Part shown: positions 7,820 through 62,794 of the stretch, one piece after another
Layout: each line of letters opens with the position of its first letter
How positions within the stretch are numbered: position 1 is the stretch's first letter
IMG/VR virus record: IMGVR_UViG_3300025785_000009
Location: 62,001-126,000 of that record
Origin: a virus
Strand: one strand, 5' to 3'
Length of the DNA: 64,000 bases
Made by a program: the position numbers and the translations under genes
Notes under the pieces: generated by a model
Databases searched by the model: none
Seen by the model: only the letters and a program-made list of their open reading frames with translations
Told to the model about the DNA's origin: nothing

Positions 7820-8263
7820 TCATAATTTTTTCCCGTAAATCCAGCCCAACTGCTGTGTTTCGTGTATCCAAGTAAAAATTGGAGTGGTAATATCCAAACG
7901 CCATTCACCATTCCAACTGAGGTAATTGCTGGACATTGTTTCTCTACCTATAAGGAAATAACGTCCACGATAGATGAAATCAGCCAACTCGTACCCTTCA
8001 ATGTTGACAGTTTTGACTACGACTGCTTTGTCGGCCACAATTTGATTGTTCTCAACCCGAGTATCATCATCCAGCTTGTTGGTAAACCCAACTGCAATAG
8101 TGTGGTTACCGTCTTGGAGCGAGACGTCAAAGTTGTAAGTGGCTGTGTCTCGCAACACACCCCGATCCTGAAGGTGGTCATCAATTTTGATATAAAACTC
8201 TGGCCAGCGGTCCGCATAGCCCACAGGATCTACAGTTATGCTAAACTTTAAATTAGTAGCCAT
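7820..8263 (-). CDS. Unrecognised beta-rich protein coupled to a radical SAM gene
   Basis: A 147-residue protein with the alternating pattern of a beta-sandwich, including the segment SLQDGNHTIAVGF (about 48-60) seen in some carbohydrate-binding and fibronectin-like folds, and a Trp-rich C-terminus (LSWNGEW, FTWIHE, GWIY). No cysteines, signal peptide or membrane segment. Its ATG overlaps the end of the upstream radical SAM gene by 11 bases, so the two are probably translated together. A carbohydrate-binding role is a guess from the fold-like pattern; no family is recognised with confidence. Confidence 0.6.
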   Translation of the reverse strand: MATNLKFSITVDPVGYADRWPEFYIKIDDHLQDRGVLRDTATYNFDVSLQDGNHTIAVGFTNKLDDDTRVENNQIVADKAVVVKTVNIEGYELADFIYRGRYFLIGRETMSSNYLSWNGEWRLDITTPIFTWIHETQQLGWIYGKKL

Positions 8264-9557
8264 ATTCTATTAAAAAATCTTTTAGTATGGGAAATTGAGC
8301 AGTCACGTCAGTGCCACGTCGGGTGTCTAATTCGCGCAATCTACGTGCCGCTTCGCGTCTCAGGTCCACATAATCTTCTGTGTGTTGCAAGCTAGCAATA
8401 CTGCTTTCTGTTTCTTTGATACAGTTTTCTAGTGCATAAGCTGGATTACGCCAATTGGTCATGCCAGCTGGCCTGTCCTGTTTTAGTCGATTCAGTTTTG
8501 TCAGCAACTGCTCAAAATCTTTTTGCAACATTTGTTTGATCGATTTGGGCAAGATTTTGATCTGTTGCCAGACTGGATCTGTGGCAAAATAACTGTCAAC
8601 TACTAGCCCTTGTGCCGCACACCATTCAATGACATCCACATATTCTGTGATAGTCAAAAATGTAGGCACAGTACGTATAACAAAATCCACGTTTGTGGGC
8701 GCATCTCTGCGTGCCTGTGCAATGTTGTCGATCAAGGTTTCAAACGTACTGCCATAACGAATGTAGTCGTTGGTTTTACTCATGGTTTCGATACTGAAAC
8801 TGACTTCGGCACGTTTAAATTGCGCCAACTTGGGCCATAACTCTGTTAAATCGTGCATACCATTGGTGGTAAAGCTAAAACTGTAGTTGGTGTGCCCTGC
8901 AGCAACCAAGGTGTCAATCAGTTGATGAAAACGCTTGTTAATGGTGGGTTCACCGCCGATAATGTGCAGATTAACCAAGTCTGTGGCCAACAATGTTGCA
9001 CACATCTGATCCCAAATCGCAGGATCATCGGTCCAATTTAATCTACGAGCATCCTGTATCCAACCCAAGGCTCGGTAGTCTTGTGCCAGTTTAAAACTGC
9101 TGTATGGACTACACATAATGCAGGCTAGGTCACATTCGTTGCCCAAACTCAAATGATAACTGACCGGCCGTGTAGTGGTCTCACCGTCGTTGTGCAGGCT
9201 GTGTTCAAATATGGTTCTGTGCGGACTTTGATCGAAACTCTTGTTGAAGTTGAGATCGTTAAACAGCACACTCTTTAGGTTTTCCTTGATACGCTTGCTG
9301 TGACTGCCAATTGAGTCTTGGTGTTGGCAGATAGCACAGGCTGGATTAGGTGTGTCTGACATTTTTTGCAAGCGTTCATCTCGCAGTCGGCGGCTGTTCC
9401 AGTATTCGTCCACACTATAGTTGCGTATGTTCCAAACCTTGGCTTGATCTGTTTCGGTAATCAATTCAGTCATACAACCACAGAGGTCATAACTGCCGTC
9501 GTGATTGATATGGATCTCATACCAAGGTATGTTACAGAATATATTTTTATTGGGCAT
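8253..9557 (-). CDS. Radical SAM protein with N-terminal twitch-like cysteines
   Basis: A 434-residue protein. An N-terminal auxiliary module comes first: FCNIPW with Cys8, Cys26 and Cys28 after a DGSYDLCGC turn, and CAIC at 74-77. The radical SAM core then starts at Cys142-x3-Cys146-x2-Cys149 (CDLACIMC), with the SAM-contacting GGEP at 201-204 and a later SFTTNG strand. This order matches the twitch-domain radical SAM family found in phages and marine bacteria. The reaction is unknown; such enzymes generate a 5'-deoxyadenosyl radical. The gene overlaps the preceding radical SAM gene by 11 bases and the next gene by 11. It ends with the family-type DTRRGTDVTAQFP tail. Confidence 0.88.
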   Translation of the reverse strand: MPNKNIFCNIPWYEIHINHDGSYDLCGCMTELITETDQAKVWNIRNYSVDEYWNSRRLRDERLQKMSDTPNPACAICQHQDSIGSHSKRIKENLKSVLFNDLNFNKSFDQSPHRTIFEHSLHNDGETTTRPVSYHLSLGNECDLACIMCSPYSSFKLAQDYRALGWIQDARRLNWTDDPAIWDQMCATLLATDLVNLHIIGGEPTINKRFHQLIDTLVAAGHTNYSFSFTTNGMHDLTELWPKLAQFKRAEVSFSIETMSKTNDYIRYGSTFETLIDNIAQARRDAPTNVDFVIRTVPTFLTITEYVDVIEWCAAQGLVVDSYFATDPVWQQIKILPKSIKQMLQKDFEQLLTKLNRLKQDRPAGMTNWRNPAYALENCIKETESSIASLQHTEDYVDLRREAARRLRELDTRRGTDVTAQFPILKDFLIEYGY

Positions 9558-12280: not shown

Positions 12281-12288
12281 TAGTCTAC

Positions 12289-46455: not shown

Positions 46456-46776
46456 ATGAACGAAATCGAAAAACTTACAACCGAAGTACGTCGTGCTACC
46501 AACTACCAGGCCAATAAAAAAATCTTACGGGAAAAAATACAGGCCGATTTACATATGGCCTGCAACGGCGGACTGTTTAAAATTACACCCGAATTGTATG
46601 CTTTTGTATCAACCTGGCGCGGAGATCCGGACAGTTTATTTTTGGAAGATACCTACGGTAATCCAATAAAAATCAATCAGCAGGCATTTCTTGAAATGGC
46701 CACCGAACACTATCAGCAGGTAATGAATACCTGGCATCAACAATATGCAGAACTCCGACGTATCCGACGTGTCTAG
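46456..46776 (+). CDS. Small conserved phage protein, first gene of the accessory operon
   Basis: A 106-residue protein, mostly helical and charged at both ends, with the central section FKITPELYAFVSTWRGD and LFLEDTYGNPIKINQQAF, then a helix with AMEHYQQVMNTWHQQY-like spacing. No cysteines, membrane segment or signal peptide. Similar short proteins occur near tail genes of T4-like aquatic phages, but no function is known to me. It could be a regulator or a partner of the downstream enzymes, but nothing in the sequence proves either. Its stop overlaps the next gene's preferred GTG start by eight bases. Confidence 0.6.
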   Translation: MNEIEKLTTEVRRATNYQANKKILREKIQADLHMACNGGLFKITPELYAFVSTWRGDPDSLFLEDTYGNPIKINQQAFLEMATEHYQQVMNTWHQQYAELRRIRRV

Positions 46777-48428: not shown

Positions 48429-48774
48429 ATTTTGGGAAGAAGTTAACGCAGTAATGGCCGCACAGGAAATACCAGTGCCGGTGATTGAACATAGATTTTA
48501 TTATGACGAGCTTGGAGACATTGTCGGTTGCTCGATGCAAAACCACCCCGAGTCTGGCAATTACATAGTGGTTGATAAATCTATCTACAATACATATTTT
48601 TTATATACTGTAGTTGATGGCAAACTGGTAAAAAAAGACCCCGACAACAAGTACCGAGTGCTATTGAAACGTGGCACAAAAGGCCATTGTGTGGTAAAAA
48701 ATCACGCAGGACTAATATTGGAAGAAAACGAAACGGCACAAGAAACTGAATATTATGAGTACAAAAATAATTGA
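48409..48774 (+). CDS. Unrecognised 121-residue protein of the accessory operon
   Basis: The gene overlaps the previous one by 20 bases and the next one by 20. The protein has a helical N-terminus (SPEEIKFWEEVNAVMA), then beta-rich sequence with HRFYYDELGDIVGCSM, GNYIVVDKSIYNTYFLY and YRVLLKRGTKGHCVVKNH, and an acidic end. Two cysteines and no membrane segment are present. I do not recognise its family. The overlaps suggest translation together with the flanking glycosyltransferase-like genes. Confidence 0.55.
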   Translation: MSPEEIKFWEEVNAVMAAQEIPVPVIEHRFYYDELGDIVGCSMQNHPESGNYIVVDKSIYNTYFLYTVVDGKLVKKDPDNKYRVLLKRGTKGHCVVKNHAGLILEENETAQETEYYEYKNN

Positions 48775-49651: not shown

Positions 49652-50601
49652 CGCTATTTTTAAACATCAACGATAACCATATATTCAATCGGCTGGAGCT
49701 GATTGCCTTTTTGGCTCGCAATCAAGATCAAAATATTATTCTAAATACCAACTACGAAGGTGGGTGTTTGGAATCCCTGGGCATATACGAACTGCTGGAT
49801 TGTTTTAGATTCAAATCGGTAACTATTGTGACTGGTAACGTGGTTGAGTATCACCCGGTTTATCAAATACGTGTACACGATTCGGCTTTTAGATTCTTTT
49901 ATACCACTGGCAACACAGACTATACACCGTATCAGGTTTGGAATCGTCGAAAAATATTTGGTGCATTGTATAATCGAGCCACGTGGAATCGTATGGGCAT
50001 TGCTGGGCATTTGCAAATTAACCACGCAGACAAATCTGTAATTAATTTTCGTTCTAATCCACACGACGATGTTGACCGCCGGTTATTTGAAATGCAACGA
50101 TTGTTTGAAATTGATTTGCCATCGGCCCGGAACTTTTTATTGGCCGCCGATCATTTCCCTGTACAAATTGAAAATCAAGATGGTTACACCATTGGGGTGT
50201 CAACTCAACAGCACACAGAACAATTGGCCAATTTTTATCAAGACTTTCTAATAGACATAGTGGCTGAAACTTTTGTGAATGGACGTAATTTTTTTCCCAC
50301 AGAAAAAACCATTCGCCCAATGCTGTTAAAAAAACCGTTTATAACAATGGGACCAAAATGCCACCTGATACATCTAAGACAAATGGGCTTTAGAACATTT
50401 GGCAGCTTCTGGAATGAAGACTATGATGGCTACGGAATTAAACATAAATATACTAAGATTCTCGATCTTATTGATACGCTATCGTCTCGATCAACAGATC
50501 AGCTGGCACAAATGTACGCTGATATGCAACCAATACTAGATCACAATTACAATTTACTAATCGAAAAAAAGTTTTCAAAAACCATAAATTATGTTGAATG
50601 A
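49648..50601 (+). CDS. Glycosyltransferase-like protein with TEKTxRPM motif (paralogue 1)
   Basis: A 317-residue protein. The C-terminal half contains DIVAETFVNGRNFFPTEKT (about 202-220), RPMLLKKPFITMGPKCHL, then MGFRTFGSFWNEDYDGYG. This TEKT...RPM...KKPF...LGF..F...W.E.YD pattern recalls the nucleotide-sugar-binding end of GT-B fucosyltransferase/exostosin-like enzymes. The N-terminal half is diverged. The next gene (50591) and the gene at 60526 share the pattern, so this phage has three copies. The enzyme class is inferred; no substrate is known. It overlaps the next gene by 11 bases. Confidence 0.55.
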   Translation: MTLFLNINDNHIFNRLELIAFLARNQDQNIILNTNYEGGCLESLGIYELLDCFRFKSVTIVTGNVVEYHPVYQIRVHDSAFRFFYTTGNTDYTPYQVWNRRKIFGALYNRATWNRMGIAGHLQINHADKSVINFRSNPHDDVDRRLFEMQRLFEIDLPSARNFLLAADHFPVQIENQDGYTIGVSTQQHTEQLANFYQDFLIDIVAETFVNGRNFFPTEKTIRPMLLKKPFITMGPKCHLIHLRQMGFRTFGSFWNEDYDGYGIKHKYTKILDLIDTLSSRSTDQLAQMYADMQPILDHNYNLLIEKKFSKTINYVE

Positions 50602-51658
50602 AACAACTGGATCATATCGTGTGGCCGCCGGCAGCGACTACAAGACTTGGTTAAAAGATGCCCTGGTACACTATATGTACGATTGTTTAAAAAACGATCA
50701 AAACATTGTGATTGACATCACTCCCGAAGCAGCATCATTTAGAGCCAATGGTCTATACAATGTACTAGATAGATTTTGCGATCATACCGGTTATGCCAAA
50801 CAGCGTGTTACCATACGCACTGGCAATATGCTGGAGAATCATGAATCGTATCAGATACAACGTGTGGCCACAGCCTGGTATGAACTGACTCGCATACGTG
50901 GATGGATAAGACAAAATCCTGTCACACCAGAATTTGCTCCAACATATCATTTTGGTCATTTTGTTGGCAAAAGTAACTGGAACCGATTATGGACAGCTGC
51001 ATTGTTACACAGTCGTTACGCAGACAAAACTTTGCAAACTTATAATTGCGGAATAGGCACACATTATCTGAGAAAATCCGAGGACCTTGTTGATTACGTG
51101 GGACTAGAAGATTTGGTTGAGTTTGGTTGTGACATATTGCCTGAGGTGGTTGCGTTTTTACAAGACTGCCCTAGAACCATTGCCGAGGACGTGGAGTTTA
51201 TCTCTGGCAAAGGCAACTACATCAACCAAAGTCAAGATTGTTATCCTATACAGATGCCTAACAATTTAAACATACTGAATTATTACAATTCAATTTTTGT
51301 TGATGTGGCACACGAAACTTATATGGCCGATGGTGTTTTCTTTTGTACTGAAAAGACCTGGCGACCAATGATTGCACGTAGACCTTTTGTTTCAGTTACT
51401 CCTCGCAATCATTTGGCCAATCTTCGTCGTTTAGGATTTTGTACTTTTAACAAGTATTGGGATGAAGGATACGACGAGTACGGATTAGCCAATCGTATTC
51501 ACGAAGTTAGTAAATTATTAGAAACAATAAGTCGTTGGACTCCGGCTGAAATGGCCCGAGCACTTGCAGATATGCAAGAAATATTTGAGCACAACTATCA
51601 AACACTTTTGTCGTTGACTACTACCACTGTAGAAAAGATCTTTGTAAATGACAACTAA
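50591..51658 (+). CDS. Glycosyltransferase-like protein with TEKTWRPM motif (paralogue 2)
   Basis: A 355-residue protein, the closest relative of the gene before it: FVDVAHETYMADGVFFCTEK (about 235-254), RPMIARRPFVSVTPRNHL, LRRLGFCTFNKYWDEGYDEY. The N-terminal part contains IRTGNMLENHESYQIQR, parallel to IVTGNVVEYHPVYQIR in the neighbour, which shows that the whole length is homologous. The pair probably arose by tandem duplication. It overlaps the preceding gene by 11 bases and the following radical SAM gene by 11. Confidence 0.55.
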   Translation: MLNETTGSYRVAAGSDYKTWLKDALVHYMYDCLKNDQNIVIDITPEAASFRANGLYNVLDRFCDHTGYAKQRVTIRTGNMLENHESYQIQRVATAWYELTRIRGWIRQNPVTPEFAPTYHFGHFVGKSNWNRLWTAALLHSRYADKTLQTYNCGIGTHYLRKSEDLVDYVGLEDLVEFGCDILPEVVAFLQDCPRTIAEDVEFISGKGNYINQSQDCYPIQMPNNLNILNYYNSIFVDVAHETYMADGVFFCTEKTWRPMIARRPFVSVTPRNHLANLRRLGFCTFNKYWDEGYDEYGLANRIHEVSKLLETISRWTPAEMARALADMQEIFEHNYQTLLSLTTTTVEKIFVNDN

Positions 51659-52487
51659 ACACCACTTGCCGTTTGTAGAAATGATGGTTACACAATTCTG
51701 TAATCTAAGTTGTCTTGGGTGCAGCAATTACGCTGACCTAAAGCACACAGGTTATGTCAAATGGGAGGACGGTCGCAGAGAAATTGAATCTTGGTTGCCA
51801 CGTATGGATATCGAAGACTTTGGCATCATGGGCGGCGAACCCTTGATCAATCCCGAGCTCAAGCAATGGATACGTGGACTAAGAGAACTGTTGCCTACAA
51901 GTCCCATACGCTTTAGTACCAACGGTGAACTGCTGGACCGACACTTGGATGTATTAGAAACAGCACACGAAGTGGGTAACTTTGTTTTTAAGATTACTGC
52001 ACATCAACACAGTGAGCGTGTAGAAGCAGTGATACGCAAAATATTTTCAATGTACAAATGGGAACCTGTGTACGAGTTTGGCATCTATCGTTACAAGACC
52101 ACAAACGGCCTGCGATTTCAAGTCAATCGCCCACTGACATTTATCAAGTACTATAAGAACGACTATCCAAATATGATGCCGTTTAATAGTAATCCAGCAG
52201 AATCGTTTGAAATTTGTATGCAACAAAAATGTCCGCTGATGTTTCAGGGCAAGTTGTACAAGTGTAGTACGTTGGGCGGGTTAGAACAAACACTAGATCG
52301 TTTTGGCATAACAGATCCGGCGTGGAAACCATATCGCGGGCAGTACATTACACCCGATAGCCCAGATGAGGCAATTGCAGCATTCCTCAACAATTATGGT
52401 CGACCACATCGTGTATGTACTATGTGCCCCACAGCCAAGGATGACGAAAGCATAGTTTTACATTACAATAACGTAATTACAAAATGA
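51648..52487 (+). CDS. Radical SAM protein with C-terminal auxiliary-cluster cysteines
   Basis: A 279-residue protein with radical SAM cysteines at 18, 22 and 25 (CNLSCLGC), GGEP at 62-65 (DFGIMGGEPLIN) and RFSTNG. C-terminal Cys190, Cys195, Cys206, Cys257 and Cys260 (ICMQQKC, LYKCSTLG, VCTMC) could bind one auxiliary 4Fe-4S cluster. It is the only C-terminal-cluster radical SAM gene in the plus-strand operon; the other six have N-terminal modules. Of known groups, BtrN-type twitch dehydrogenases and PqqE/SPASM enzymes share this order, but I cannot assign a substrate. It overlaps its neighbours by 11 and 4 bases. Confidence 0.88.
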   Translation: MTTKHHLPFVEMMVTQFCNLSCLGCSNYADLKHTGYVKWEDGRREIESWLPRMDIEDFGIMGGEPLINPELKQWIRGLRELLPTSPIRFSTNGELLDRHLDVLETAHEVGNFVFKITAHQHSERVEAVIRKIFSMYKWEPVYEFGIYRYKTTNGLRFQVNRPLTFIKYYKNDYPNMMPFNSNPAESFEICMQQKCPLMFQGKLYKCSTLGGLEQTLDRFGITDPAWKPYRGQYITPDSPDEAIAAFLNNYGRPHRVCTMCPTAKDDESIVLHYNNVITK

Positions 52488-53380
52488 AACAAGATCAAAG
52501 ATTCTTTGCATTTGGCTGTAGCTTTACTAACAGCATATACTATCCAACCTGGGCCGACATAGTGGGACGTCAGTACAAATCGTATTCCAATTGGGGACAA
52601 GATGGTGCAGGCAATAGTTTTATTTTTTATAGCCTAATGGAATGCCACAAACGTAACCGTATCACCCGGGATGATGTTGTGATGATTATGTGGAGCAGCA
52701 TAGGCCGCGAGGACCGTTGGGTTGCAAGTGAACAATGGATTACTCCGGGTAGTATCTATAATCAAACAACCTACAGCGAAGATTTTGTTGCAAAATTTGC
52801 CGACCCCACCGGCTACCTAATTCGAGATATGGCACACTTGTCTGCGGCTAAAGCTGTACTGGATTCAATTGGCTGTGAGTACAAGTTTTTTAGTATAGTG
52901 CCGTTTAATGTACCTGATGATAATATTTTTAAAATTTTTAGTATAGACAACGAAATAACCACACTATACGCCAACGAACTAGCTGCAGTTAAACCCAGCG
53001 TATACGAAGCAATATTCAATTTTGATTGGTACAGTCGCAAGGGGTATGTAGACATAAAAGGACTTGAACAAGAATACACAGTTTTACGTGGCGCCAATTG
53101 GCCAACGTGGGAACAATTTGTTCAGCAGGACTTTAGTGGAGTCGACAATCGTGTCAAGGTAGAGATCAACGAAAAACATCAATTCAGCAAGCGTTTGTTA
53201 TTTAGAACCAACACACATCCAATGCCAGCCGAATACTTGTTGTACTTGAATACGGTAGCACCTGAAATAGAAATTAACAGCAATACAGTAGAGTGGACCA
53301 ATACAGTGAATGAAATGATAATGACCAAACAACCACTTGGCCGTGTATGGGCCGGCCCACAATTACCCAGGAGATTTTAA
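52484..53380 (+). CDS. SGNH-hydrolase-like protein
   Basis: A 298-residue protein with FAFGCSFT (candidate nucleophile Ser13), WGQDGAGNSF (about 38-47, blocks II-III) and HPMPAEYL near 244 as a weak block V without the Asp two residues before. SGNH proteins are esterases, lipases or acyltransferases acting on glycans or acyl groups; the absence of a clear Asp makes catalysis uncertain. The segment RDDVVMIMWSSIGREDRW follows the usual G-x-N region. It overlaps the preceding radical SAM gene by four bases and is joined end to end to a second SGNH-like gene. Confidence 0.6.
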   Translation: MKQDQRFFAFGCSFTNSIYYPTWADIVGRQYKSYSNWGQDGAGNSFIFYSLMECHKRNRITRDDVVMIMWSSIGREDRWVASEQWITPGSIYNQTTYSEDFVAKFADPTGYLIRDMAHLSAAKAVLDSIGCEYKFFSIVPFNVPDDNIFKIFSIDNEITTLYANELAAVKPSVYEAIFNFDWYSRKGYVDIKGLEQEYTVLRGANWPTWEQFVQQDFSGVDNRVKVEINEKHQFSKRLLFRTNTHPMPAEYLLYLNTVAPEIEINSNTVEWTNTVNEMIMTKQPLGRVWAGPQLPRRF

Positions 53381-54094
53381 ATGAAAATTTTAGTCAATGG
53401 ACCCAGTGTTGCTAGAGGTGCTGGATCGTGGCCTTATATACTACAAGAGCAACTGGAACAAAATATCGAGTGCGATATTATCAATCTTGCACAGGCCGGA
53501 GCAGGTAACGAATATATCTATGCCACTACCATATCCGAGTTAGCACAAAGAAAATACGATCTAGTAATGGTCATGTGGTGCGACTTTAGACGGTTTGATA
53601 TCAAAGTCAGAGACATCACCAAATTTGCTGATACTACTTACACCAGCCTATATCAAAGCCGACAGAATGATTGGCCCAGCAAAGTTATTTGGCCTGAAAA
53701 CGATCAAGACTATGTGGAAAAGGATTGGGTATTTGGTTGCGGTTACATCAATAACGAAGGTGAAAGCGTCAAACAACTGTTTGACGAATTTTACAATCAT
53801 ACCGATTATGAAAGCCATTATCATAGAAGTCTTACCAAAATTATAGGACTGCAAGGTGTATTAAAATCAATGAATCAGCCATACCTGTTTTGTTCTGTGA
53901 GAGAGTTAAAAGATCTGCGAGTCAATTCACACTTGTATGATATGATCGACAAACAAAACCTAGTGTTACAAACTCCGCACAAGATTGCTGGCGAAATTGA
54001 CAGCTGGGCCGATCCAACCCATCCCGGTCCTGAAGCGCATACAGAATTTGTCAAATACCTTATTGCTAACCTTAAAGAGAGAAACTTGGTTTGA
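53381..54094 (+). CDS. SGNH-hydrolase-like protein
   Basis: A 237-residue protein starting at the base after the previous stop (TAAATG). Block I reads LVNGPSVARG (Ser9), the block II/III region AQAGAGNEYIY (about 37-47) and block V DPTHPGPEAHTEF (Asp211, His214), the usual catalytic Asp/His pair. It is therefore the better candidate of the two neighbouring SGNH-like proteins for an active esterase/acyltransferase. It overlaps the next radical SAM gene by four bases. Neighbouring glycosyltransferase-like genes suggest a glycan substrate; that is inference. Confidence 0.65.
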   Translation: MKILVNGPSVARGAGSWPYILQEQLEQNIECDIINLAQAGAGNEYIYATTISELAQRKYDLVMVMWCDFRRFDIKVRDITKFADTTYTSLYQSRQNDWPSKVIWPENDQDYVEKDWVFGCGYINNEGESVKQLFDEFYNHTDYESHYHRSLTKIIGLQGVLKSMNQPYLFCSVRELKDLRVNSHLYDMIDKQNLVLQTPHKIAGEIDSWADPTHPGPEAHTEFVKYLIANLKERNLV

Positions 54095-55476
54095 GTAAAA
54101 GCGACTTTATGTCTGCCGCTGAGCAGATGAAAGAAAAATTAGGACCAGCACTCTGTTTGGCCAAATGGAAACAGGTGAGTCTACACTTGCCTACAGGACT
54201 CAACAACAGTTGCTATCATCCGCCCTTGCATCAAATTGATCCCGCAGTATTAAAAGACAATCCGGGTGCATTACACAATACCGAGCATAAGAAAAAGCAA
54301 CGTGTTATTATGCTCAAAGACGAACGTCCACAAGAATGTAGCTATTGCTGGACACAAGAAGACTTGGGTAACCTAAGCGATAGACATTATAGATCAGGAG
54401 AGCCTTGGGCAGCAGAAGATTATGAACCTATTAGATCCAGTGCCGGAAATGAAGACGACGTTGTTCCGTCGTACGTCGAAGTTAACTTTAATCATGCGTG
54501 TAATCTCAAATGCAGTTATTGTAGTCCCCAGTTTAGTAGTAGCTGGCAGCAAGAAGTTGATAGGTTTGGCGGATACCCAACCAGTACTGTTCATAACGAT
54601 GCTAGCCATTTTGTTGGTCGCAACAGGCCTATTCCTCATTCCCAAGATAATCCTTATGTTGATGCATTTTGGGCCTGGTGGCCTACACTTTATCCGCAAC
54701 TGAAACATTTCCGTATGACCGGTGGCGAACCCCTGATGGATCGTAACACATTCAAGGTATTTGACTATGTGTTGGCCTTGCCTAATCCTGAATTGCACCT
54801 GAATGTGACATCAAACTTCAGCGTAGAACCAGCATTGTTTGAACGCTATCTAGATTATGTAAAACGCTTGTGTTCAACTCAAATTGAACACTTTATGCAG
54901 TACGTGAGTTTAGACTCAGGTATACCAGCTCACGCAGAATACATACGCAACGGTTTGAATATGAATCGTCTGGTCAGCTATGTTGAACGTTACCTGACAG
55001 AAGTTCCTTATCGCAACAGTCTTACATTTATTATCACAATGAATAACCTAAGCGTATTGGGTTTACAACGACAGCTAGATTATATTTTGAGTCTACGCAG
55101 AACGCACAGTACCACATATCAACGTGTTTGGTTTGATACTCCGTTACTACGTCAACCGCGTTGGCAAAGTTTACAAATCTTGCCTGAAGTTTACGTGGGG
55201 GTATTGGAACGTGTGGCTGACTGGATGGAACTGAATTTGGAAACTGCCGAAGATCCATTTCACGGATTCAAGGACTACGAAGTACAACGTATGCGCCGCG
55301 ATATTGATTGGATGAAGGAAGGTCGCAATTTGGATCCAGGATATGTTAAACTACAACGTGCAGATTTTTATAGATTTTTCCACGAACACGATCAACGACG
55401 CAACACCGACTTTTTAGAAACTTTCCCAGAGATGCGGGAATTTTGGAACGAATGCCGATACTATGCCCAGAATTAA
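54091..55476 (+). CDS. Radical SAM protein, N-twitch type (CYHP/CHHP subgroup)
   Basis: A 461-residue protein starting with TTG in a TTGA overlap; an ATG six codons later is the alternative. N-terminal cysteines: Cys22, Cys41 (SCYHPP) and a CxxC pair Cys83-Cys86 followed by WTQED. The radical SAM motif is Cys137-x3-Cys141-x2-Cys144 (CNLKCSYC), then FSSSWQQE, GGEP in RMTGGEPLMD and a VTSNFS strand. The end reads HDQRRNTDFLETFPEMREFW. It is paralogous to the next gene, and together they form a subgroup in which the usual adjacent CC is replaced by CYHP or CHHP. Function unknown. Confidence 0.88.
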   Translation: MSKSDFMSAAEQMKEKLGPALCLAKWKQVSLHLPTGLNNSCYHPPLHQIDPAVLKDNPGALHNTEHKKKQRVIMLKDERPQECSYCWTQEDLGNLSDRHYRSGEPWAAEDYEPIRSSAGNEDDVVPSYVEVNFNHACNLKCSYCSPQFSSSWQQEVDRFGGYPTSTVHNDASHFVGRNRPIPHSQDNPYVDAFWAWWPTLYPQLKHFRMTGGEPLMDRNTFKVFDYVLALPNPELHLNVTSNFSVEPALFERYLDYVKRLCSTQIEHFMQYVSLDSGIPAHAEYIRNGLNMNRLVSYVERYLTEVPYRNSLTFIITMNNLSVLGLQRQLDYILSLRRTHSTTYQRVWFDTPLLRQPRWQSLQILPEVYVGVLERVADWMELNLETAEDPFHGFKDYEVQRMRRDIDWMKEGRNLDPGYVKLQRADFYRFFHEHDQRRNTDFLETFPEMREFWNECRYYAQN

Positions 55477-56812
55477 CAATGAAACCGATTTAGAATACAA
55501 ACGCCGGGTGATCGACATCAAGTCGGAAAGCTTCTGCGGAGCCAAATGGTACAATGCTACTATATGGTTAGGGTCAGGGCAAACTACTAGTTGCCATCAC
55601 CCGTTGCCACATCAGGTTAGTGTTGACGAAGTACGTGCCAATCCCAAGGCATTACATAATACCGCTAAAAAGAAATCAGAACGTGCTCAAATGCAACGGG
55701 GCGAACGTCCTGTCGGTTGCGAATACTGTTGGAAGATTGAAGACATTGGTCGCGACAACATCAGTGACCGTGTGTACAAAACTGTTATATATGATGATAA
55801 GGATTTGGATCTTGCTTACAACACTCCTGCAGAAGAAGATGTGGATTTACAAACACTTGAAATCGCGTTTGACCGTACCTGTCAATTTGCTTGTAGCTAC
55901 TGCAACCCTGCTTTTAGTAGTAGCTGGGTACGTGACCTTAAGCAACACGGGCCATACACCCAATTGGTTAGCGACGGCCGCAACCACTTTACTCACCCTC
56001 ACGATAGCAGTCAACTTTATCGCTTCGGCGAAGTTAACCCGTATGTAGAAGCATTTCACAAATGGTGGGAAACAGATCTACACAGAACATTAAAAGAATT
56101 ACGTATCACTGGCGGTGAGCCACTTATGTCGCCAGAGACCTGGAAACTAATTGAATGGTTTAAAACTAACAAAGGCAAGAGTTCTACACGTCTTGCTATT
56201 AACAGTAACCTAGGTACTGATGTAGACGTAAATCGTTTGCTAGCAGCCATTGATGGAGTCACTGTTGACTTATATACCAGTAATGAAAGCATCGGTCTAC
56301 AAGCCGAATACATACGCGATGGACTTGTCTGGGACGACTGGGCCAACAACTGTGAAAAGATTATGGACTCAGGTAAACTACGTGGCTTCCACGTGATGTG
56401 TACTATCAATGCCTTGTGTTTAGACACACTAGACAGTTTCTTAGAGTGCTGTATGAATTGGAAACGTGAGTACGGAAAGAACTTCCCTAGTTTCTCGCTA
56501 AATATTTTAAGATTTCCAAGTTTTCAAAGTCCACTGGTTCTTCCAGATGTATTACGAACACACTACAAAATTCGCTTGCAAGATTGGTTAGACACAAACA
56601 GCAATGACGAATTCTTGCACGAGTATGAACGCAATCAACTGCAACGCTTGATTGACTATTTGGATGTGGTCAAAACACCACACGCAGATGCTGCAGAACA
56701 ATCAGTACTACAACAAGACTTTAAGAAGTTTTATACACAGTATGACCAGCGTCGCGGTAAAAACTTCACAGCAACATTTCCTGCCTTGGCAGGCTGGTAC
56801 AACACGTTATGA
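55463..56812 (+). CDS. Radical SAM protein, N-twitch type (CYHP/CHHP subgroup), paralogue
   Basis: A 449-residue protein overlapping the preceding gene by 14 bases. N-terminal cysteines at 25, 44 (TSCHHPLPHQ), 86 and 89 (CEYCWKIEDIG). The radical SAM motif is Cys140-x3-Cys144-x2-Cys147 (CQFACSYC), with FSSSWVRDL, GGEP in RITGGEPLMS and a INSNLG strand. YDQRRGKNFTATFPALAGWY ends it. Lengths, N-terminal cysteine pattern and the tail match its upstream neighbour, which indicates tandem duplication followed by divergence. Confidence 0.88.
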   Translation: MPRINNETDLEYKRRVIDIKSESFCGAKWYNATIWLGSGQTTSCHHPLPHQVSVDEVRANPKALHNTAKKKSERAQMQRGERPVGCEYCWKIEDIGRDNISDRVYKTVIYDDKDLDLAYNTPAEEDVDLQTLEIAFDRTCQFACSYCNPAFSSSWVRDLKQHGPYTQLVSDGRNHFTHPHDSSQLYRFGEVNPYVEAFHKWWETDLHRTLKELRITGGEPLMSPETWKLIEWFKTNKGKSSTRLAINSNLGTDVDVNRLLAAIDGVTVDLYTSNESIGLQAEYIRDGLVWDDWANNCEKIMDSGKLRGFHVMCTINALCLDTLDSFLECCMNWKREYGKNFPSFSLNILRFPSFQSPLVLPDVLRTHYKIRLQDWLDTNSNDEFLHEYERNQLQRLIDYLDVVKTPHADAAEQSVLQQDFKKFYTQYDQRRGKNFTATFPALAGWYNTL

Positions 56813-58134
56813 GCAAACAAGATTTTTACAACAAGGGTTACGACTACAATGCTCGTGCGCCTTATTTCATTGAACGCACAGAATTGACAGAACAAGAGTG
56901 GCATCGCTTGACTCAGAGCGAAACATTCTGTATGTTGCCTTGGACTCATATGCACGCCTTCCCAGACGGTCGTGTGTATCCTTGCTGTTTGGCTGACTAT
57001 TGGCATCCAGTGGGCGACTTACGTCAACACACAATGCGAGAAGTGTGGAACCAAGACCGGTACCGGCAGTTGCGTGTCAATATGCTTGCAGATCAACCCA
57101 GTAAAGAATGTACCAAGTGCTACGAGCAAGAGCGGCACGGTGCGTTTAGTATGCGTAACGATAGTAATCGTAACTACGGACATTTAATTAAGGAAACAAA
57201 TGCGACACAAGATGATGGCACACATCCTGAATTCAAGATTAGGTATTGGGATGTGCGTTTTAGTAATCTCTGCAATTTCCGCTGTCGTTCCTGCGGTCCT
57301 ATTTTCAGTAGCAACTGGTACAACGATCACGTTAAGTTATATAACCGCGTTCCAGATGTGCTTGGTCGTGATATGTCACGAGTGGAGTACGCTGCAGGAG
57401 ACGAGGATGCAATGCAAGAGCAAATGCTTGAGCACGTTCCGTATCTAGAACAGGTTTACTTTGCTGGCGGCGAGCCGTTAATTATGAAAGAGCATTATGC
57501 TTTATTAGAAAAGCTAATTGATGCCGGCAAAACTGATGTACGTATTCAATACAATACAAACTTCAGTGAAATGCGTTACAAAGACAAGCACGTGTTTGAA
57601 TATTGGAAACACTTTAAGAATGTTTCAGTAGGTGCTAGTCTAGATGGTATGGGTCCTCAAGCAGAACTTATACGCAAAGGTGCAGACTGGCGTCAAACAG
57701 TAGAAAACCGCGAACGTATGATGGCAGAAGTGCCACACGTGGATTTTTATGTAAGCTCAACTGTTAGCTCAATGAATGTACTACACGTGCTGGACTTCCA
57801 TCAGGAATGGACTCGGTTGGGATTGATTCAAGCCAAGGATTGGAATATCAACATTTGCCAAAGTCCCGAATGGTATAGAATTGATATCTTCCCGGAGGAG
57901 TTTAAACAGCGTGTCATCTATCCGGCATATGAACGTCATATTGAGTGGTTAGATCCACAAGACAGTTTGCGTCGTGCTACCACAGGATATCAAAGTTTAC
58001 TGAGTCTAATGCGCGGCACTGATGGTACCAAACATTGGCCACGGTTTGTAGAAGAAACTGCCAAACTAGACGCAGTACGAAATGAATGTTTCTGGGATTT
58101 ATTTCCTGAATTTAAGGAATTAAACGGTGGCTGA
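56809..58134 (+). CDS. Radical SAM protein, N-twitch type
   Basis: A 441-residue protein overlapping the previous gene by four bases. The N-terminal module has FCMLPWTHMHAFPDGRVYPC (Cys41, Cys59, Cys60) and CTKC at 101-104. The radical SAM motif is Cys155-x3-Cys159-x2-Cys162 (CNFRCRSC), with FSSNWYND, GGEP at 220-223 and IQYNTNFSE. The ASLDGMGPQAELIRKGADW segment is typical of the family. It ends RNECFWDLFPEFKELNGG. The F/LCMLPW and PCC pattern is shared with the genes at 58127, 59319 and 61484. Substrate unknown. Confidence 0.9.
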   Translation: MSKQDFYNKGYDYNARAPYFIERTELTEQEWHRLTQSETFCMLPWTHMHAFPDGRVYPCCLADYWHPVGDLRQHTMREVWNQDRYRQLRVNMLADQPSKECTKCYEQERHGAFSMRNDSNRNYGHLIKETNATQDDGTHPEFKIRYWDVRFSNLCNFRCRSCGPIFSSNWYNDHVKLYNRVPDVLGRDMSRVEYAAGDEDAMQEQMLEHVPYLEQVYFAGGEPLIMKEHYALLEKLIDAGKTDVRIQYNTNFSEMRYKDKHVFEYWKHFKNVSVGASLDGMGPQAELIRKGADWRQTVENRERMMAEVPHVDFYVSSTVSSMNVLHVLDFHQEWTRLGLIQAKDWNINICQSPEWYRIDIFPEEFKQRVIYPAYERHIEWLDPQDSLRRATTGYQSLLSLMRGTDGTKHWPRFVEETAKLDAVRNECFWDLFPEFKELNGG

Positions 58135-59332
58135 TCACAAGTGTATGTTGCCTTGGACCAGTCTGGCTGCCAACACAGTAGGCACAGTACGCCCTTGTTG
58201 CATTAGCGAGGACGTAATCAAACGTGATGATGGCACTCCATACAATCTTGCTACCGACAGTATAATGGAAATCTTTCACAGCAATTATATGAAAGATTTG
58301 CGACAAGAATTCATTGATGGTGGCAAACCTCGAGCGTGTCGTCGTTGCTGGAATGAGGAAGCTGTGGGCAAAATCAGCAAACGTGTTAATCATTTGCAGA
58401 AAATGAATATGCTGTTGCCTTTGGTAAATTTTAATACTGTCGTGCCTAAACATTTTTTATACTTGGATTTGAAATTGGGCAATATCTGCAATCTCAAATG
58501 TCGTATATGTGGTCCTATGATCAGCAGCAAGTGGGCACAGGAGAGTCTAATGCAGGTTCCATACAAAGAAAGACGAACTCATCAAAGCAAGACCTGGCTA
58601 GTAGAAGGCGAATGGCCACGTACCAGTACAACATTTTGGGAAGAAGTACGAACTTTGATACCCAAGATTAAATTTTTAGATTTCACTGGCGGTGAGCCTT
58701 TTATGATTCAAGAACACTTTGACCTGTTGCAGTACAGCGTAGACACAGGTTCCAGTCGTTATCAACATTTATTTTACAATACCAATGGAACTGTATTCCC
58801 CGAAGGTGCTGAAGAATTATGGAAAAACTTCAAACGTGTTGAAATAGCATTTAGCATTGACGGATTGGGCAAACGTTTTGAACTAGAACGTTCAGGAGCC
58901 AAGTGGTCGGAAGTCAATGCAAACATACAAAGATTTCGTGCAATGAAAGCTCGTCTTCCACATATAGAGCTACAGGTTAATCCTACTGTGAGTATACAAA
59001 ATGTTTATTATCTTGAGGAATTGTGTGCGTGGATAGCCGAACAAGACTTTGATCACGAAAACTTTGGATTAGTTCACGAAGCGGCCTATTTGAGTATTGG
59101 TACAATGCCGCCGGAAGCAAAACAATTGGTAATTGAAAAATTAAACTCAGGCAAATTTATTGACCGCCACCGTCGCGAAATTGATCAAATAATTGATTTT
59201 ATCAACAATGCTGAAAGCAAAGACGGAGTCAGATTCCGTGAGGAAATGAAACAGTTGGATCGTATCCGTGGAGAAAATTTTGCAGACACACATCCAGAAA
59301 TAGCAAAAGCAATGCGGTATGACGTTACCTAA
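58127..59332 (+). CDS. Radical SAM protein, N-twitch type (THPEIA-tail subgroup)
   Basis: A 401-residue protein starting at a GTG that overlaps the preceding stop by eight bases. N-terminal cysteines at 6, 24, 25 (VRPCCIS), 71 and 74 (CRRCWNEEAVGKISKR). The radical SAM motif is Cys121-x3-Cys125-x2-Cys128 (CNLKCRIC), with LDFTGGEPFMIQEHF, FSIDGLG and TVSIQNVYYLEEL. The ENFADTHPEIAKAMRYD tail is shared with the following gene and with the minus-strand gene at 13458. A 23-bp stretch over the cluster-binding region is identical to the next gene, indicating recent duplication or gene conversion. Confidence 0.9.
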   Translation: MADHKCMLPWTSLAANTVGTVRPCCISEDVIKRDDGTPYNLATDSIMEIFHSNYMKDLRQEFIDGGKPRACRRCWNEEAVGKISKRVNHLQKMNMLLPLVNFNTVVPKHFLYLDLKLGNICNLKCRICGPMISSKWAQESLMQVPYKERRTHQSKTWLVEGEWPRTSTTFWEEVRTLIPKIKFLDFTGGEPFMIQEHFDLLQYSVDTGSSRYQHLFYNTNGTVFPEGAEELWKNFKRVEIAFSIDGLGKRFELERSGAKWSEVNANIQRFRAMKARLPHIELQVNPTVSIQNVYYLEELCAWIAEQDFDHENFGLVHEAAYLSIGTMPPEAKQLVIEKLNSGKFIDRHRREIDQIIDFINNAESKDGVRFREEMKQLDRIRGENFADTHPEIAKAMRYDVT

Positions 59333-60536
59333 AACAATTTGTATGTTACCTTGGATCTCCATTGAGACCAGCCCGATGGGCACTACACGTCCTTGCTGTA
59401 TGGCACACGAGGAAATAGTTGATGCCACAGGTAAAAAATACGATCTAAATGAAACCAACTTGGAAACTGCATATCACAGCGAGTATATGCAAAATCTACG
59501 TAGACAGTTTCGTGCCGGGGAAAAGCCAGCAACCTGTAGTCGTTGTTGGGATGAAGAAGCTGCCGGCCGCGACAGCAAACGCATCCATAGTCAAGTTAGA
59601 CTCAAGCACTTGTACGACAAGGTTGACTGGGCGAACGATAATCCTGACCAGCTATGGTTTGTGGATTTGAAGTTGGGTAACATCTGCAATCTCAAATGTC
59701 GTATTTGTGGATCGTGGTCAAGCAGCAAGTGGGCCGAAGAAGAATTAGCATATATGCCCAAAGACTTTGATAAGAAGAGTCACATTGCCTACACCTGGCT
59801 AAAGGCCGGTGCCTGGCCACGCAAAACAACAATCTTCTGGGACAACCTACGTGAACTATTGCCCAACATCAAGTATTTTGAATTTACCGGTGGTGAACCC
59901 TGGATGATACAAGAGCATTTTGATCTACTGAGATATGCGGCTGCCTTGGGTTACAGCAAGAACATTGACATACACTACAACACCAATGCCACGCAGGAAC
60001 TGAGTGAAAACACACAGATTTGGAATCAATTTGGTCGTGTAGATATTGCGTTCAGTATTGACAACGTAGGCGATCGTTTTGAATATGAACGCTACGGGGC
60101 CAAGTGGGATTTGGCAAATAAAATTATCGACGATGTACACTTTGCCAAACGTGTTGACACACCCAATATCACCACACAGTTGTGTTTTACTGTCAATATT
60201 CAAAATGTCTATTACTTGGATGAATTACTAGACTGGGCCGACACCAAAGGGTTTGGAGACATTTATTTCAATATGATGCACAGTCCTGATCATATGAGCA
60301 TACAACGTATGACTCCGGCTGCCAATGAACTGGTGTTAAACAAATTAAAAACTACATTTTGGAAAAACAGTCATTATCAACGAGAAATCAACAACATAAT
60401 CAATTTCATTGAATTAGGTTCAGGCAGCGACGGATCGGAATTTTTGTTTAAGATGCAACGTACCGATGCACACCGCAAACAAAACTTCTTGGACACGCAC
60501 CCTGAAATAGCCAGAGCAATGGGATATGAAGATTAA
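59319..60536 (+). CDS. Radical SAM protein, N-twitch type (THPEIA-tail subgroup)
   Basis: A 405-residue protein overlapping the preceding gene by 14 bases. Cysteines at 8, 26, 27 (TRPCCMAHEE), 73 and 76 (CSRCWDEEAAGRDSKR). The radical SAM motif is Cys123-x3-Cys127-x2-Cys130 (CNLKCRIC), with EFTGGEPWMIQEHFDLLRY, FSIDNVG and TVNIQNVYYLDEL. It ends NFLDTHPEIARAMGYED. It is the nearest paralogue of the preceding gene. Its ATGAAGATTAA end overlaps the next gene by 11 bases. Confidence 0.9.
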   Translation: MTLPKTICMLPWISIETSPMGTTRPCCMAHEEIVDATGKKYDLNETNLETAYHSEYMQNLRRQFRAGEKPATCSRCWDEEAAGRDSKRIHSQVRLKHLYDKVDWANDNPDQLWFVDLKLGNICNLKCRICGSWSSSKWAEEELAYMPKDFDKKSHIAYTWLKAGAWPRKTTIFWDNLRELLPNIKYFEFTGGEPWMIQEHFDLLRYAAALGYSKNIDIHYNTNATQELSENTQIWNQFGRVDIAFSIDNVGDRFEYERYGAKWDLANKIIDDVHFAKRVDTPNITTQLCFTVNIQNVYYLDELLDWADTKGFGDIYFNMMHSPDHMSIQRMTPAANELVLNKLKTTFWKNSHYQREINNIINFIELGSGSDGSEFLFKMQRTDAHRKQNFLDTHPEIARAMGYED

Positions 60537-61491
60537 ACTGGTTGGTTTTTGGGATCACAACAACTATACACAGATAACCTTATTAGAGTATCGTAGTATA
60601 ATTGGTCAGGCTTTTGATTTTGAATTCTATGATCCGCACCGTGCATACGACAAACAATCAACCTTGTTTGTGTGCAATCATTATCAATATCACAAAAATA
60701 AAACAACTGTTGATCAATTGGTCGGGGATGGTTATCGATTGGTGTTTGAGTCGCTGTTGGAAAAACAAAGCAGTTCGTCGCATACTGAAACAACGGTGTT
60801 GCACGTGGTTGGATCAGAGAGCACAAATACTCCACCAAATACCTTGGAAGTTCCGTTGTATTTTTGGTATCACGAAAATCGATTGAGCAACTACACAGTA
60901 GAACGTACCTACACACCAGACAAAAAGTTTTTGCTGATGATGAATTTTGCTAGACCTTTTAGAGACGATATATACAACAAGTTTACTCCAATCTTGGAGC
61001 AAGGACTATACAGTTATGTTGATCGTGGAGTGCGTATCGATGGCGATATTGAACACGACAGCCCCGGACACAAAGAGTATTGGGATAGATGGGATCGTTA
61101 CATAAATCCTGCGTGGTACAATCGTACAGAAATCAACATAGTGGTAGAAACACAAATGAACACAGACGAAATATTTGTCACAGAAAAAACAATGAAACCT
61201 CTAGCATTACAACAACCGTTTGTGATGCTGGGCGGAGTTGGTACATTGGATTTTTTACAACGCTCGGGGTTTGAAACATACAGTAATTTATTCGACGAGT
61301 CATACGATTTCAAACTCAACCGATTGGATCTAGTGTACGAACAGATAAAAAATTATCAGCTGCAAGGATACAGTCAAGAAACTCGAGACAAAATGGCGCA
61401 CAATTCCAGTTTGTTTCACAATAGATCTGCTGTTGATGTATCGTTCTACCAGTCAATAGTCGAACCCTTAATGGAATTTATAAATGGATAA
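60526..61491 (+). CDS. Glycosyltransferase-like protein with TEKTMKP motif (paralogue 3)
   Basis: A 321-residue protein. The C-terminal region has INIVVETQMNTDEIFVTEKT (about 202-221), MKPLALQQPFVMLGG and RSGFETYSNLFDESYDF, the pattern of the genes at 49648 and 50591. In the N-terminal half, KKFLLMMNFARPFRDDIYN resembles sections of fucosyltransferase-like proteins. It lies between two N-twitch radical SAM genes, overlapping them by 11 and 8 bases, which suggests it acts in the same pathway. Sugar donor and acceptor are unknown. Confidence 0.55.
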   Translation: MKIKLVGFWDHNNYTQITLLEYRSIIGQAFDFEFYDPHRAYDKQSTLFVCNHYQYHKNKTTVDQLVGDGYRLVFESLLEKQSSSSHTETTVLHVVGSESTNTPPNTLEVPLYFWYHENRLSNYTVERTYTPDKKFLLMMNFARPFRDDIYNKFTPILEQGLYSYVDRGVRIDGDIEHDSPGHKEYWDRWDRYINPAWYNRTEINIVVETQMNTDEIFVTEKTMKPLALQQPFVMLGGVGTLDFLQRSGFETYSNLFDESYDFKLNRLDLVYEQIKNYQLQGYSQETRDKMAHNSSLFHNRSAVDVSFYQSIVEPLMEFING

Positions 61492-62794
61492 ACCAGCAAC
61501 ACTTTGTATGGCACCTTGGACTCATACCTATCTCAGCCCGCAAACTGAGCGTAGAATGTGTTGTGCGTCAAGAGAGCCTGCGCAGAATTTTCAACAGTAC
61601 ATTGATACTACATCGGGTACCGGCAAGTACATACCTATTTCATTGGATGAGCATTGGAACAGTGAACATATGAAAAGTGTGCGCCGTCGTATGATGGCCG
61701 GAGAAACCTTGCCCGAATGTGATGTGTGCAACAGCAAGTTGCTGAATACCGACGTTTACCGCTCGTATTTTAACAGTTTATTTGGTCATAAGTATTTACA
61801 GGCCCTGGAACATACTGATGATACGGGCTACACGACAATGAAGCCAGTCTCGTGGGATTATAGGTTTAGTAACCTGTGTAATTTTAAATGCCGTATGTGC
61901 GGCGATATGCTGTCGAGTGCTTGGGAGAGTGAGCAACGACAACATAATATGATTGATTGGGACAATCCTAATACACATTGGATGCGCCCTGAGGTCAAAG
62001 AACAAATAGTAAAGTTTCAAGACACCCAGGTAGAGCAAGAGTTTGCTACTGCTGTTGAGGAACACCGAGTGGAAGAGGTGTATTGGGTGGGAGGTGAACC
62101 GTTGATGTACGAGCAACACTGGAAGTATATGCAACGGATCATAGAACTTGGAGATGGAAAAAATGTTTACGCTAGGTATAACACAAATCTTAGTCGCATC
62201 AATTATCGCGGTATCAATTTGTTTAGGGATATACTATCTGGGTTACGTGACTGGCAAATCTGTGCAAGCATCGATGGCACGGGCCGAATTGGCGAGTATA
62301 TTAGATCAGGTCTTGATTTTGATCAGTGGCTTGAGAACATCCGCGAAGGACTTGCGTACCACAGTCACCGCCGCCAGATCCGTTTGGACTTCACTCTTAC
62401 TACACCAGGACTCTTTGAAGTACAAGCGATACAATCGCTCGCAGAAACACTAGGTGTAGACGTACTAGCCAAAGTAGTTTTTAGTTTTAGCCCGGACATT
62501 GTTATGTCGCCGTTGGCCCTGCCCAGATCCATTTTGGAACCCTGGGTAGACGAAATCCTGAATGGCACTCCTGAGGGTAAACCTCTAACCGGCCCGTTAC
62601 GGGATATACTTGTCCAGCTAAAAACTAGACCCACATTTGCTGAACAGTGGCCCGCAGAATACGAAGCCGGTCTCAGAAAGGGCAAAGCTCGTATATTAGA
62701 ACTTGAAAAAATCCGAAAAGACCAGTATACTTTTAGAGACATCATGTCCTTAAGACCTCAAGCACTCGAATGGTGGGATTCAATTGACAATTAA
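61484..62794 (+). CDS. Radical SAM protein, N-twitch type
   Basis: A 436-residue protein whose ATGGATAA start overlaps the preceding stop. LCMAPWTHTYLSP carries Cys8; Cys26 and Cys27 follow in RRMCCASRE; Cys79 and Cys82 form CDVC. The radical SAM motif is Cys132-x3-Cys136-x2-Cys139 (CNFKCRMC), with YWVGGEPLMYEQHW and ICASIDGTGRIGEYIRSG. The usual W after the second CxxC is missing (CNSKL). The C-terminus reads DQYTFRDIMSLRPQALEWW, a variant of the family tail. It is the last radical SAM gene in the window and overlaps the next gene by 11 bases. Confidence 0.9.
   Translation: MDKPATLCMAPWTHTYLSPQTERRMCCASREPAQNFQQYIDTTSGTGKYIPISLDEHWNSEHMKSVRRRMMAGETLPECDVCNSKLLNTDVYRSYFNSLFGHKYLQALEHTDDTGYTTMKPVSWDYRFSNLCNFKCRMCGDMLSSAWESEQRQHNMIDWDNPNTHWMRPEVKEQIVKFQDTQVEQEFATAVEEHRVEEVYWVGGEPLMYEQHWKYMQRIIELGDGKNVYARYNTNLSRINYRGINLFRDILSGLRDWQICASIDGTGRIGEYIRSGLDFDQWLENIREGLAYHSHRRQIRLDFTLTTPGLFEVQAIQSLAETLGVDVLAKVVFSFSPDIVMSPLALPRSILEPWVDEILNGTPEGKPLTGPLRDILVQLKTRPTFAEQWPAEYEAGLRKGKARILELEKIRKDQYTFRDIMSLRPQALEWWDSIDN

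Follow-up and report, generated by a model that had tools for sequence, protein, structure and literature searches.

A conserved five-gene radical SAM array behind the tail-fibre genes of a T4-like phage and its relatives: a possible glycan-tailoring locus

Phages rich in radical S-adenosylmethionine (SAM) enzymes have been noted since 2010 and loosely explained as carriers of metabolic helpers. Passages of the report on the Campylobacter phages CP220 and CPt10 count 11 and 12 radical SAM proteins, respectively (PMC2853527), and part of the text on a T4-like genome, TARA_ERS488813_N000010, gives 12 radical SAM genes (PMC5332604); the CP220 count was reproduced in our hands (11 matches to PF04055, the general Pfam radical SAM model). 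Here we analyse a 64,000-nucleotide stretch (the window), positions 62001-126000 of the 140,816-bp viral record IMGVR_UViG_3300025785_000009 (G000), in which five types of radical SAM enzyme, A to E, form an array directly behind the tail-fibre genes. An earlier note on this stretch had called a multi-step radical pathway in a T4-like phage new and supposed one or a few of these enzymes per phage to be the rule, overlooking CP220, CPt10 and the Tara genome, for which 11-12 per genome had already been reported; richness in radical SAM genes is thus not new for T4-like phages. What distinguishes the present case is a collinear five-enzyme core with fusions and fixed neighbours, a single locus of five enzymes and one carbamoyltransferase that can be tested as a unit. 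A fixed phage array of five radical SAM genes was not found in the literature (open-access text only). Our leading explanation, held tentatively, is that several radical enzymes encoded in one locus tailor a common target, in all likelihood a glycan of the tail fibres or the host surface.

All eleven radical SAM open reading frames (ORFs) that the earlier note had placed in the window are present there with one CxxxCxxC motif apiece, and its statement that most carry GGEP holds for nine of the 11 by translation, the motif being absent from the products of the genes at 9547 and 14894. In the eight proteins said to have N-terminal twitch-like cysteines, four cysteines do precede the radical SAM motif, as read from the sequence. 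These same eight (encoded at 8253 and 13458 on the minus strand and at 54091, 55463, 56809, 58127, 59319 and 61484) score 244.6-398.5 bits on the NCBIfam model NF033640 (N-terminal twitch radical SAM, N_Twi; whole-protein cut-off 170 bits), and matches over a curated cut-off in eight proteins are well above chance. The PF04055 matches are weaker, falling below the cut-off of 29.5 bits for 54091 (20.7), 55463 (28.7), 59319 (24.3) and 14894 (23.1). The array comprises the following genes, with clade support given by the Shimodaira-Hasegawa-like approximate likelihood ratio test (SH-aLRT):

54091..55476, plus strand: radical SAM A, N-terminal twitch; NF033640 290.5 bits; clade SH-aLRT 100
55463..56812, plus strand: radical SAM B, N-terminal twitch; NF033640 295.6 bits; clade SH-aLRT 99
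56809..58134, plus strand: radical SAM C, N-terminal twitch; NF033640 398.5 bits; clade SH-aLRT 100
58127..59332, plus strand: radical SAM D', an extra D-type copy; NF033640 350.8 bits; within the D clade, SH-aLRT 94
59319..60536, plus strand: radical SAM D, N-terminal twitch; NF033640 335 bits; clade SH-aLRT 99
61484..62794, plus strand: radical SAM E, N-terminal twitch; NF033640 293 bits; clade SH-aLRT 100

Scanning viral contigs with C returned 40 loci, and for E and for GTx (a gene upstream of A that does not encode a radical SAM enzyme) we took the best 80 of at least 599 matching stretches each, numbers that make relatives common in IMG/VR. These loci are the closest relatives and not a random sample, and the three scans share contigs; order and neighbourhood were counted only in loci with enough flank, with fusions resolved for order. 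Among the C-fetched loci, 29 of 40 had room, 28 of them containing ABCDE singly and in order, and the other (L011), which is the window virus or nearly so, having D doubled, with D' as the extra copy. The best 80 loci fetched by E included 62 with room: 47 with ABCDE singly, three with C or D doubled and 12 missing at least one member. With GTx, 52 of the best 80 had room: all five members were present in 33, ABCD in 11 and fewer in eight; six GTx loci were without A-E, of which five end within 3.3 kb and one (L239) has room and holds only diverged radical SAM genes. In the 18 records counted, out of the 40 fetched by C, NF033640 matched 6-14 times per record at E ≤ 0.001 and 5-13 times over its cut-off. 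We also found C and D joined into a single 841-857-aa chain in 15 loci (12 distinct contigs), with two-domain matches for 11 of the 15, a fusion that may go back to one single event; A and B are fused in one contig, although the two genes overlap briefly and an error of sequencing there is possible. Such fusion of adjacent members suggests that they work together. We hold with high confidence that A-E are a conserved multi-enzyme radical locus, and with moderate confidence that they share a common product.

All seven Fe-S cysteines are kept in 487 of 487 distinct orthologues of A-E with at least 55% identity and more than 90% of the length (A 114/114, B 113/113, C 56/56, D 94/94 and E 110/110). 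Purifying selection is strong, the median ratio of nonsynonymous to synonymous substitution rates (dN/dS) being 0.048 for A, 0.064 for B, 0.044 for C, 0.052 for D and 0.107 for E (at most 25 pairs per gene, dS 0.2-1.5). The earlier note's argument that complete cysteine sets speak for active enzymes is supported. In a tree of 130 rows (matches of 100 bits or less dropped, keeping 217 of 231, and near-identical rows thinned), A-E fall into five clades on long stems with SH-aLRT 99-100; the trees were quickly built and have long branches, and branching among the five clades is unsure. Across the 40 C-fetched loci, identity in the five groups of best hits stays at about 57-87%. As to whether the proteins are simply a known family in many copies, a doubt that the earlier note had itself raised, eight of the 11 do belong to one NCBIfam subfamily, but within it they have diverged deeply. 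Under another reading the genes would be redundant tandem copies that all do the same job, kept for dosage or relaxed specificity without division of labour. This would fit the single subfamily and the extra D-type copy D'; against it, C is only 18-28% identical to the rows of A, B, D and E and of the other N_Twi proteins versus 66-84% to its own orthologues (alignment A1), the order is fixed and each member is retained, and we judge the idea very unlikely. Taken together, intact cysteine sets, purifying selection and five diverged paralogues in fixed order make a good case that A-E are active enzymes with a division of labour, a prediction from sequence comparison.

One of the eleven window radical SAM proteins, C, was modelled with AlphaFold2 (AF2), giving a predicted local distance difference test (pLDDT) score of 93.1. 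Foldseek placed GDGT-MAS first (E 5e-6, template modelling (TM) score 0.32), with MoaA, sactisynthase, viperin and BlsE next, and in VIA comparisons BlsE (Z 12.4), anSME, DesII, SuiB and SkfB (11.9) and MoaA (11.8) were all tied. Since sugar- and peptide-acting enzymes tie, the modelled fold does not decide between a sugar and a peptide substrate. When the family profile was compared with PDB, its N-terminal portion aligned with residues 183-258 of the aminocyclitol dehydrogenase BtrN (E 5e-4), which make up the twitch domain of that enzyme.

In the core layout, u, v and GTx precede A-E, and F and then an O-carbamoyltransferase, just beyond the window, follow them; a tail-fibre homologue lies upstream of A in 39 of 47 loci. 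The fixed neighbours within the window are:

46745..47590, plus strand: u, possible GT-A-type transferase; upstream of A in 41 of 47 loci
47568..48428, plus strand: v, possible GT-A-type transferase; upstream of A in 47 of 47 loci
48755..49651, plus strand: GTx, DGDN-containing, weakly like the GT-A/nucleotidyltransferase fold; upstream of A in 45 of 47 loci
62784..63863, plus strand: F, conserved gene downstream of E; 77 of 88 loci with room

A combined profile of u and v found glycogenin only in PDB, and weakly (E 0.068), and v had phrog_1903 as its sole PHROGs match (1.3e-4); none was found in PHROGs for u, GTx, F or the genes at 49648, 50591, 52484 and 60526. The AF2 model of GTx (pLDDT 78.6) reached at best Z 8.3 in VIA and E 0.02 in Foldseek, a weak GT-A/nucleotidyltransferase likeness; its best PDB profile match (E 0.0072), a chain named TRI-05 aligned over 26 residues, was taken as chance. 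In every distinct locus with room (64 of 64), the O-carbamoyltransferase follows E at a distance of no more than 6.5 kb. It is of the NodU/TobZ type, matching the Pfam Carbam_trans N and C models with 131.6 and 157.3 bits, and closest to decarbamoylnovobiocin carbamoyltransferase, GdmN and TobZ. An SGNH-like protein, recognised by eye, lies downstream of E in 41 of the 64 loci. Elsewhere in the source record (11754-12509), an RfaE-like nucleotidyltransferase is joined to a mannose-6-phosphate-isomerase-like cupin.

A carbamoyltransferase could also serve DNA hypermodification, producing 5-carbamoyloxymethylcytosine while the radical SAM enzymes act on bases. There is a precedent in the phage-type 5-hydroxymethylcytosine (5hmC) carbamoyltransferase described in portions of the MetaGPA study (PMC8670742), and thymidylate-synthase-family genes occur in eight of nine records searched (not found in G000). 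However, all three thymidylate synthases read, of the eight, have Asn (PFNI) in place of the dCMP-type Asp; carbamoyltransferases in unmodified contigs adjoin genes such as glycosyltransferases, according to the same portions (PMC8670742); and the enzyme here resembles decarbamoylnovobiocin carbamoyltransferase and TobZ, in a comparison from which the MetaGPA enzyme stood outside. Because of the Asn and of the carbamoyltransferase's relatives, carbamoylation of 5hmC in DNA is disfavoured, and we give DNA hypermodification only a very slim chance.

Between the core genes, insertions occur mainly in the A-B and D-E slots, where inserted ORFs of at least 120 aa carry a radical SAM motif in 28 of 66 and 20 of 86 cases, respectively; cassettes also occupy the slot before A. 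Their types include the 49648 family, SGNH-like proteins, class-III aminotransferase (PF00202), AMP-binding enzyme (PF00501, matched in L036), B12-binding-like radical SAM protein and amidinotransferase. The C-D slot is the usual place of larger cassettes (about 590 aa), seen at L104 5456-7219, L115 7028-8797 and L241 17489-19258, those of L104 and L115 having a B12-binding domain (below cut-off) and a radical SAM domain. The amidinotransferase, StrB1-like, a cassette in some relatives (e.g. L033) and not identified in the window, has as its best solved relative the inosamine-phosphate amidinotransferase 1bwd (E 1.7e-22). In the window the cassette genes are:

49648..50601, plus strand: 49648 family, FxTEKTxRP motif; possibly GT-B-like, by eye only; no Pfam match
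50591..51658, plus strand: 49648 family (alignment A5)
51648..52487, plus strand: radical SAM protein, PF04055 53.5 bits; no SPASM match
52484..53380, plus strand: SGNH-like protein (by eye), no Pfam match; recurs in slots
53381..54094, plus strand: SGNH-like protein (by eye); DUF6071 at E 0.051, below cut-off
60526..61491, plus strand: 49648 family, in the D-E slot (alignment A5)

The 49648 family gave no PDB-profile match.

The relatives of the carbamoyltransferase, BtrN and StrB1 act on sugars, aminocyclitols or antibiotics. Under the scheme that we propose, each of A-E would abstract hydrogen by way of a 5'-deoxyadenosyl radical, while its twitch 4Fe-4S cluster would relay an electron or keep the substrate in place. 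Acting on a common scaffold, the five could between them oxidise, epimerise or deoxygenate it at several C-H positions before the carbamoyltransferase caps it. The scaffold would most likely be a glycan unit of sugar or aminocyclitol type, built by the glycosyltransferase (GT)-like proteins. Pointers to such a product are the carbamoyltransferase, the rare aminotransferase and amidinotransferase cassettes, the BtrN match, the likeness of the C model to BlsE and DesII, the RfaE-like protein of the record and an FkbM-methyltransferase fusion in a bacterium. Displayed on tail fibres or the host surface, the glycan might alter adsorption or superinfection, and cassettes before A and in the A-B and D-E slots would vary the product between phages. 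That the product is a glycan we consider about an even matter, and its placement on the tail fibre or host surface we infer from the position of the locus. The complete sequence, with successive C-H steps on one carbohydrate, carbamoylation and attachment to the tail fibre or host surface as a cassette-diversified, aminoglycoside-like decoration, is possible but rather doubtful; if true, this would be the first multi-step radical SAM pathway dedicated to a virus, as far as known. Auxiliary metabolic genes that boost host or Fe-S-linked metabolism have been proposed instead for CP220/CPt10 and for Tara genomes (in parts of PMC2853527 and PMC5332604), a role that we regard as unlikely here given the position of the array behind tail-fibre genes, the variable cassettes and the finding that no radical SAM family other than NF033640 exceeded its NCBIfam cut-off in the result lists examined.

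Several observations weigh against glycan tailoring. The GT assignment of u, v and GTx is weak, F has no Pfam or PDB-profile match and thus no known relative, and the amidinotransferase cassette is recognised by neither Pfam nor NCBIfam; amidinotransferase and aminotransferase are also rare (five loci each, three distinct). The best Foldseek match, GDGT-MAS, acts on lipids, and Bacteriovoracales stretches L347, L348 and L349 carry E without clear A-D orthologues. The peptide-acting anSME, SuiB and SkfB tie in fold with sugar-acting enzymes, and a PqqD-like ORF (L350 5424-5726, 21.1 bits against a cut-off of 23.4) stands directly before a bacterial B. These last two points lend themselves to the main rival, and a serious one, in which A-E act as in ribosomally synthesised and post-translationally modified peptide (RiPP) systems on a ribosomal protein or peptide, in the simplest case the upstream tail-fibre/adhesin proteins, by epimerisation or cross-linking. 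SPASM/twitch radical SAM enzymes often act on peptides, SkfB is the second-best PDB profile match of the family, the tail-fibre genes lie directly upstream of the array, and in contig C108 of G028 an N_Twi gene has a PqqD match some 300 bp away. On the other side, PqqD matches were found in none of 14 phage records at E ≤ 0.001 (the records are fragments, making the absence not final), and the carbamoyltransferase and amidinotransferase cassettes suit small molecules better, so that peptide modification appears to us, on balance, not very likely.

N_Twi genes, single or multiple, are found by genome scans in Bdellovibrionota, Elusimicrobiota, Bacteroidota and others. We rejected the idea that A-E are phage-only, given that Bacteriovoracaceae UBA6144 (G019) has all five in one chromosomal cluster, with orthologue identities of 51% (A), 54% (B), 40% (C), 35% (D) and 44% (E); in a tree to which bacterial hits above 200 bits were added, bacterial C joins with support 94. 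The UBA6144 cluster (L352 8150-19909) has extra copies, and rsfS- and obg-like genes adjoin it (by eye). The five are also not always together: E is alone in stretches from Bacteriovoracales G080 and G090, while G079 has E with one N_Twi neighbour below 30% identity, in G148 two such neighbours, of at most 30% identity, accompany E, and G114 has E and B. An E-like match (E ≤ 1e-30) is present in 16 of 129 Bacteriovoracales genomes, six of them at 38-49% identity. Since E occurs in bacteria without clear A-D orthologues, A-E would be a unit in these phages whose members can live apart and presumably act alone. Likewise rejected was the notion that many copies are special to phages, with 1-53 matches (E ≤ 0.001) per record in 21 chosen bacterial assemblies, of which L248 and L272 are bins containing phage contigs; 14 of 14 control genomes also match NF033640 at E ≤ 0.001, none over the cut-off, and over-cut-off matches were therefore counted too. 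The Elusimicrobia metagenome-assembled genome (MAG) G037 (L280) has at least 53 NF033640 matches (53 of 114 candidates scored), many in long ORFs. Among related bacterial proteins, TPR repeats are fused to radical SAM domains in MAG proteins (L262, L258), and an FkbM methyltransferase is fused to an N_Twi radical SAM protein in one bacterium. A more distant version with the order A-B-C-E-D occurs in L248 and L249, filed as marine bacterial bins. L246-L250 and L272 are filed as Flavobacterium, Verrucomicrobia, Pelagibacter, Betaproteobacteria, Rickettsiales and Rhodobacteraceae bins and look like misbinned phage contigs: L247-L250 have phage tail-fibre genes and A-E-type radical SAM genes, L272 has tail-fibre genes, GTx and more diverged radical SAM genes, and L246 has B, C and E types, with no tail genes seen.

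The whole source record has 14 radical SAM genes, 11 in the window and three outside it; a further ORF (record 23290-23817) contains CxxxCxxC without an ensuing radical SAM match and was excluded. Those away from the array are:

8253..9557, minus strand: diverged N-terminal twitch radical SAM; NF033640 244.6 bits
9547..10551, minus strand: radical SAM with C-terminal SPASM; PF04055 40.0 bits, SPASM 30.1 bits
13458..14921, minus strand: N-terminal twitch radical SAM; NF033640 295.5 bits
14894..15883, minus strand: radical SAM with borderline C-terminal SPASM; PF04055 23.1 bits, SPASM 21.2 bits, both below cut-off
record 1710-2819, 15915-17069 and 17596-18480, all minus strand: extra radical SAM genes outside the window

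Three window proteins had been credited with C-terminal auxiliary cysteines. This stands for 9547 and likely for 14894, which is just under the SPASM Pfam cut-off of 21.5 bits; 51648 does have C-terminal cysteines, without a SPASM match. Among the eight N_Twi proteins, SPASM matches at E ≤ 0.1 were obtained for six, that of 61484 being below the cut-off, and not found for 54091 and 55463. The assignment to a T4-like phage agrees with PHROGs matches for portal, UvsX, SbcC/SbcD-like, late sigma and baseplate wedge proteins. The portal's best matches among isolates are PA5oct-like Pseudomonas jumbo phages (about 50% identity), and because related viral contigs reach 374 kb, we probably see here just part of a jumbo phage genome; a DNA near-match search of window 1-25000 against INPHARED gave no match. 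The small protein at 7820-8263 overlaps the radical SAM gene at 8253 and has a weak, below-cut-off match to CBM60 (carbohydrate-binding module). Nearby, 7361-7789 is homing-endonuclease-like, with a top PHROG labelled NAD synthetase, probably wrongly, and the gene at 12335, taken by eye for an adenylate-forming ligase, had nothing significant in Pfam, PDB or NCBIfam. An ORF of 3,530 aa (27433-38025) lies between the baseplate wedge and tail-fibre genes.

A tblastn search of 50,697 INPHARED records gave no match for B, GTx or F and, for A, C, D and E, distant matches only (20.9-27.2% identity), in Vibrio phages K566/K567 and phi-pp2 and the uncultured single-cell virus AG-345-D19. With relatives common in IMG/VR and only such distant matches in INPHARED, the array represents a widespread viral chemistry without a close cultured model, to which the nearest handle is the smaller N_Twi cluster of K566/K567; in K566, NF033640 exceeds its cut-off for two proteins and scores 133-155 bits for three more, of which one has an internal stop. 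The phages that carry the array, a large T4-related group, have been met only in environmental DNA. CP220 and CPt10 resemble the present phage in being T4-related with 11-12 radical SAM proteins, and have, by parts of their description, interchangeable clusters of five radical SAM genes with an amidinotransferase (PMC2853527); in CP220 two genes noted as nucleotide-diphospho-sugar transferases adjoin the radical SAM module. CP220 differs, however, in having no protein over the NF033640 cut-off and in being absent from the tblastn matches of A-E. TARA_ERS488813_N000010 is alike in its 12 radical SAM genes, going by part of its report (PMC5332604), and may belong to the same phage group. The host-recognition cluster of pelagimyophages shares a hypervariable tail-fibre region, glycosyltransferases and radical SAM cassettes, but portions of its description present these cassettes as variable and not as a fixed core of five (PMC7029224). 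The aminoglycoside tool box is matched in the BtrN twitch similarity, the 1bwd-like cassette and the TobZ-like carbamoyltransferase, whereas the twitch is N-terminal here and C-terminal in aminoglycoside-type enzymes. NF033640 covers eight window proteins under a name that gives no chemistry, and the five fixed syntenic sub-lineages are the organisation that the array adds beyond that model.

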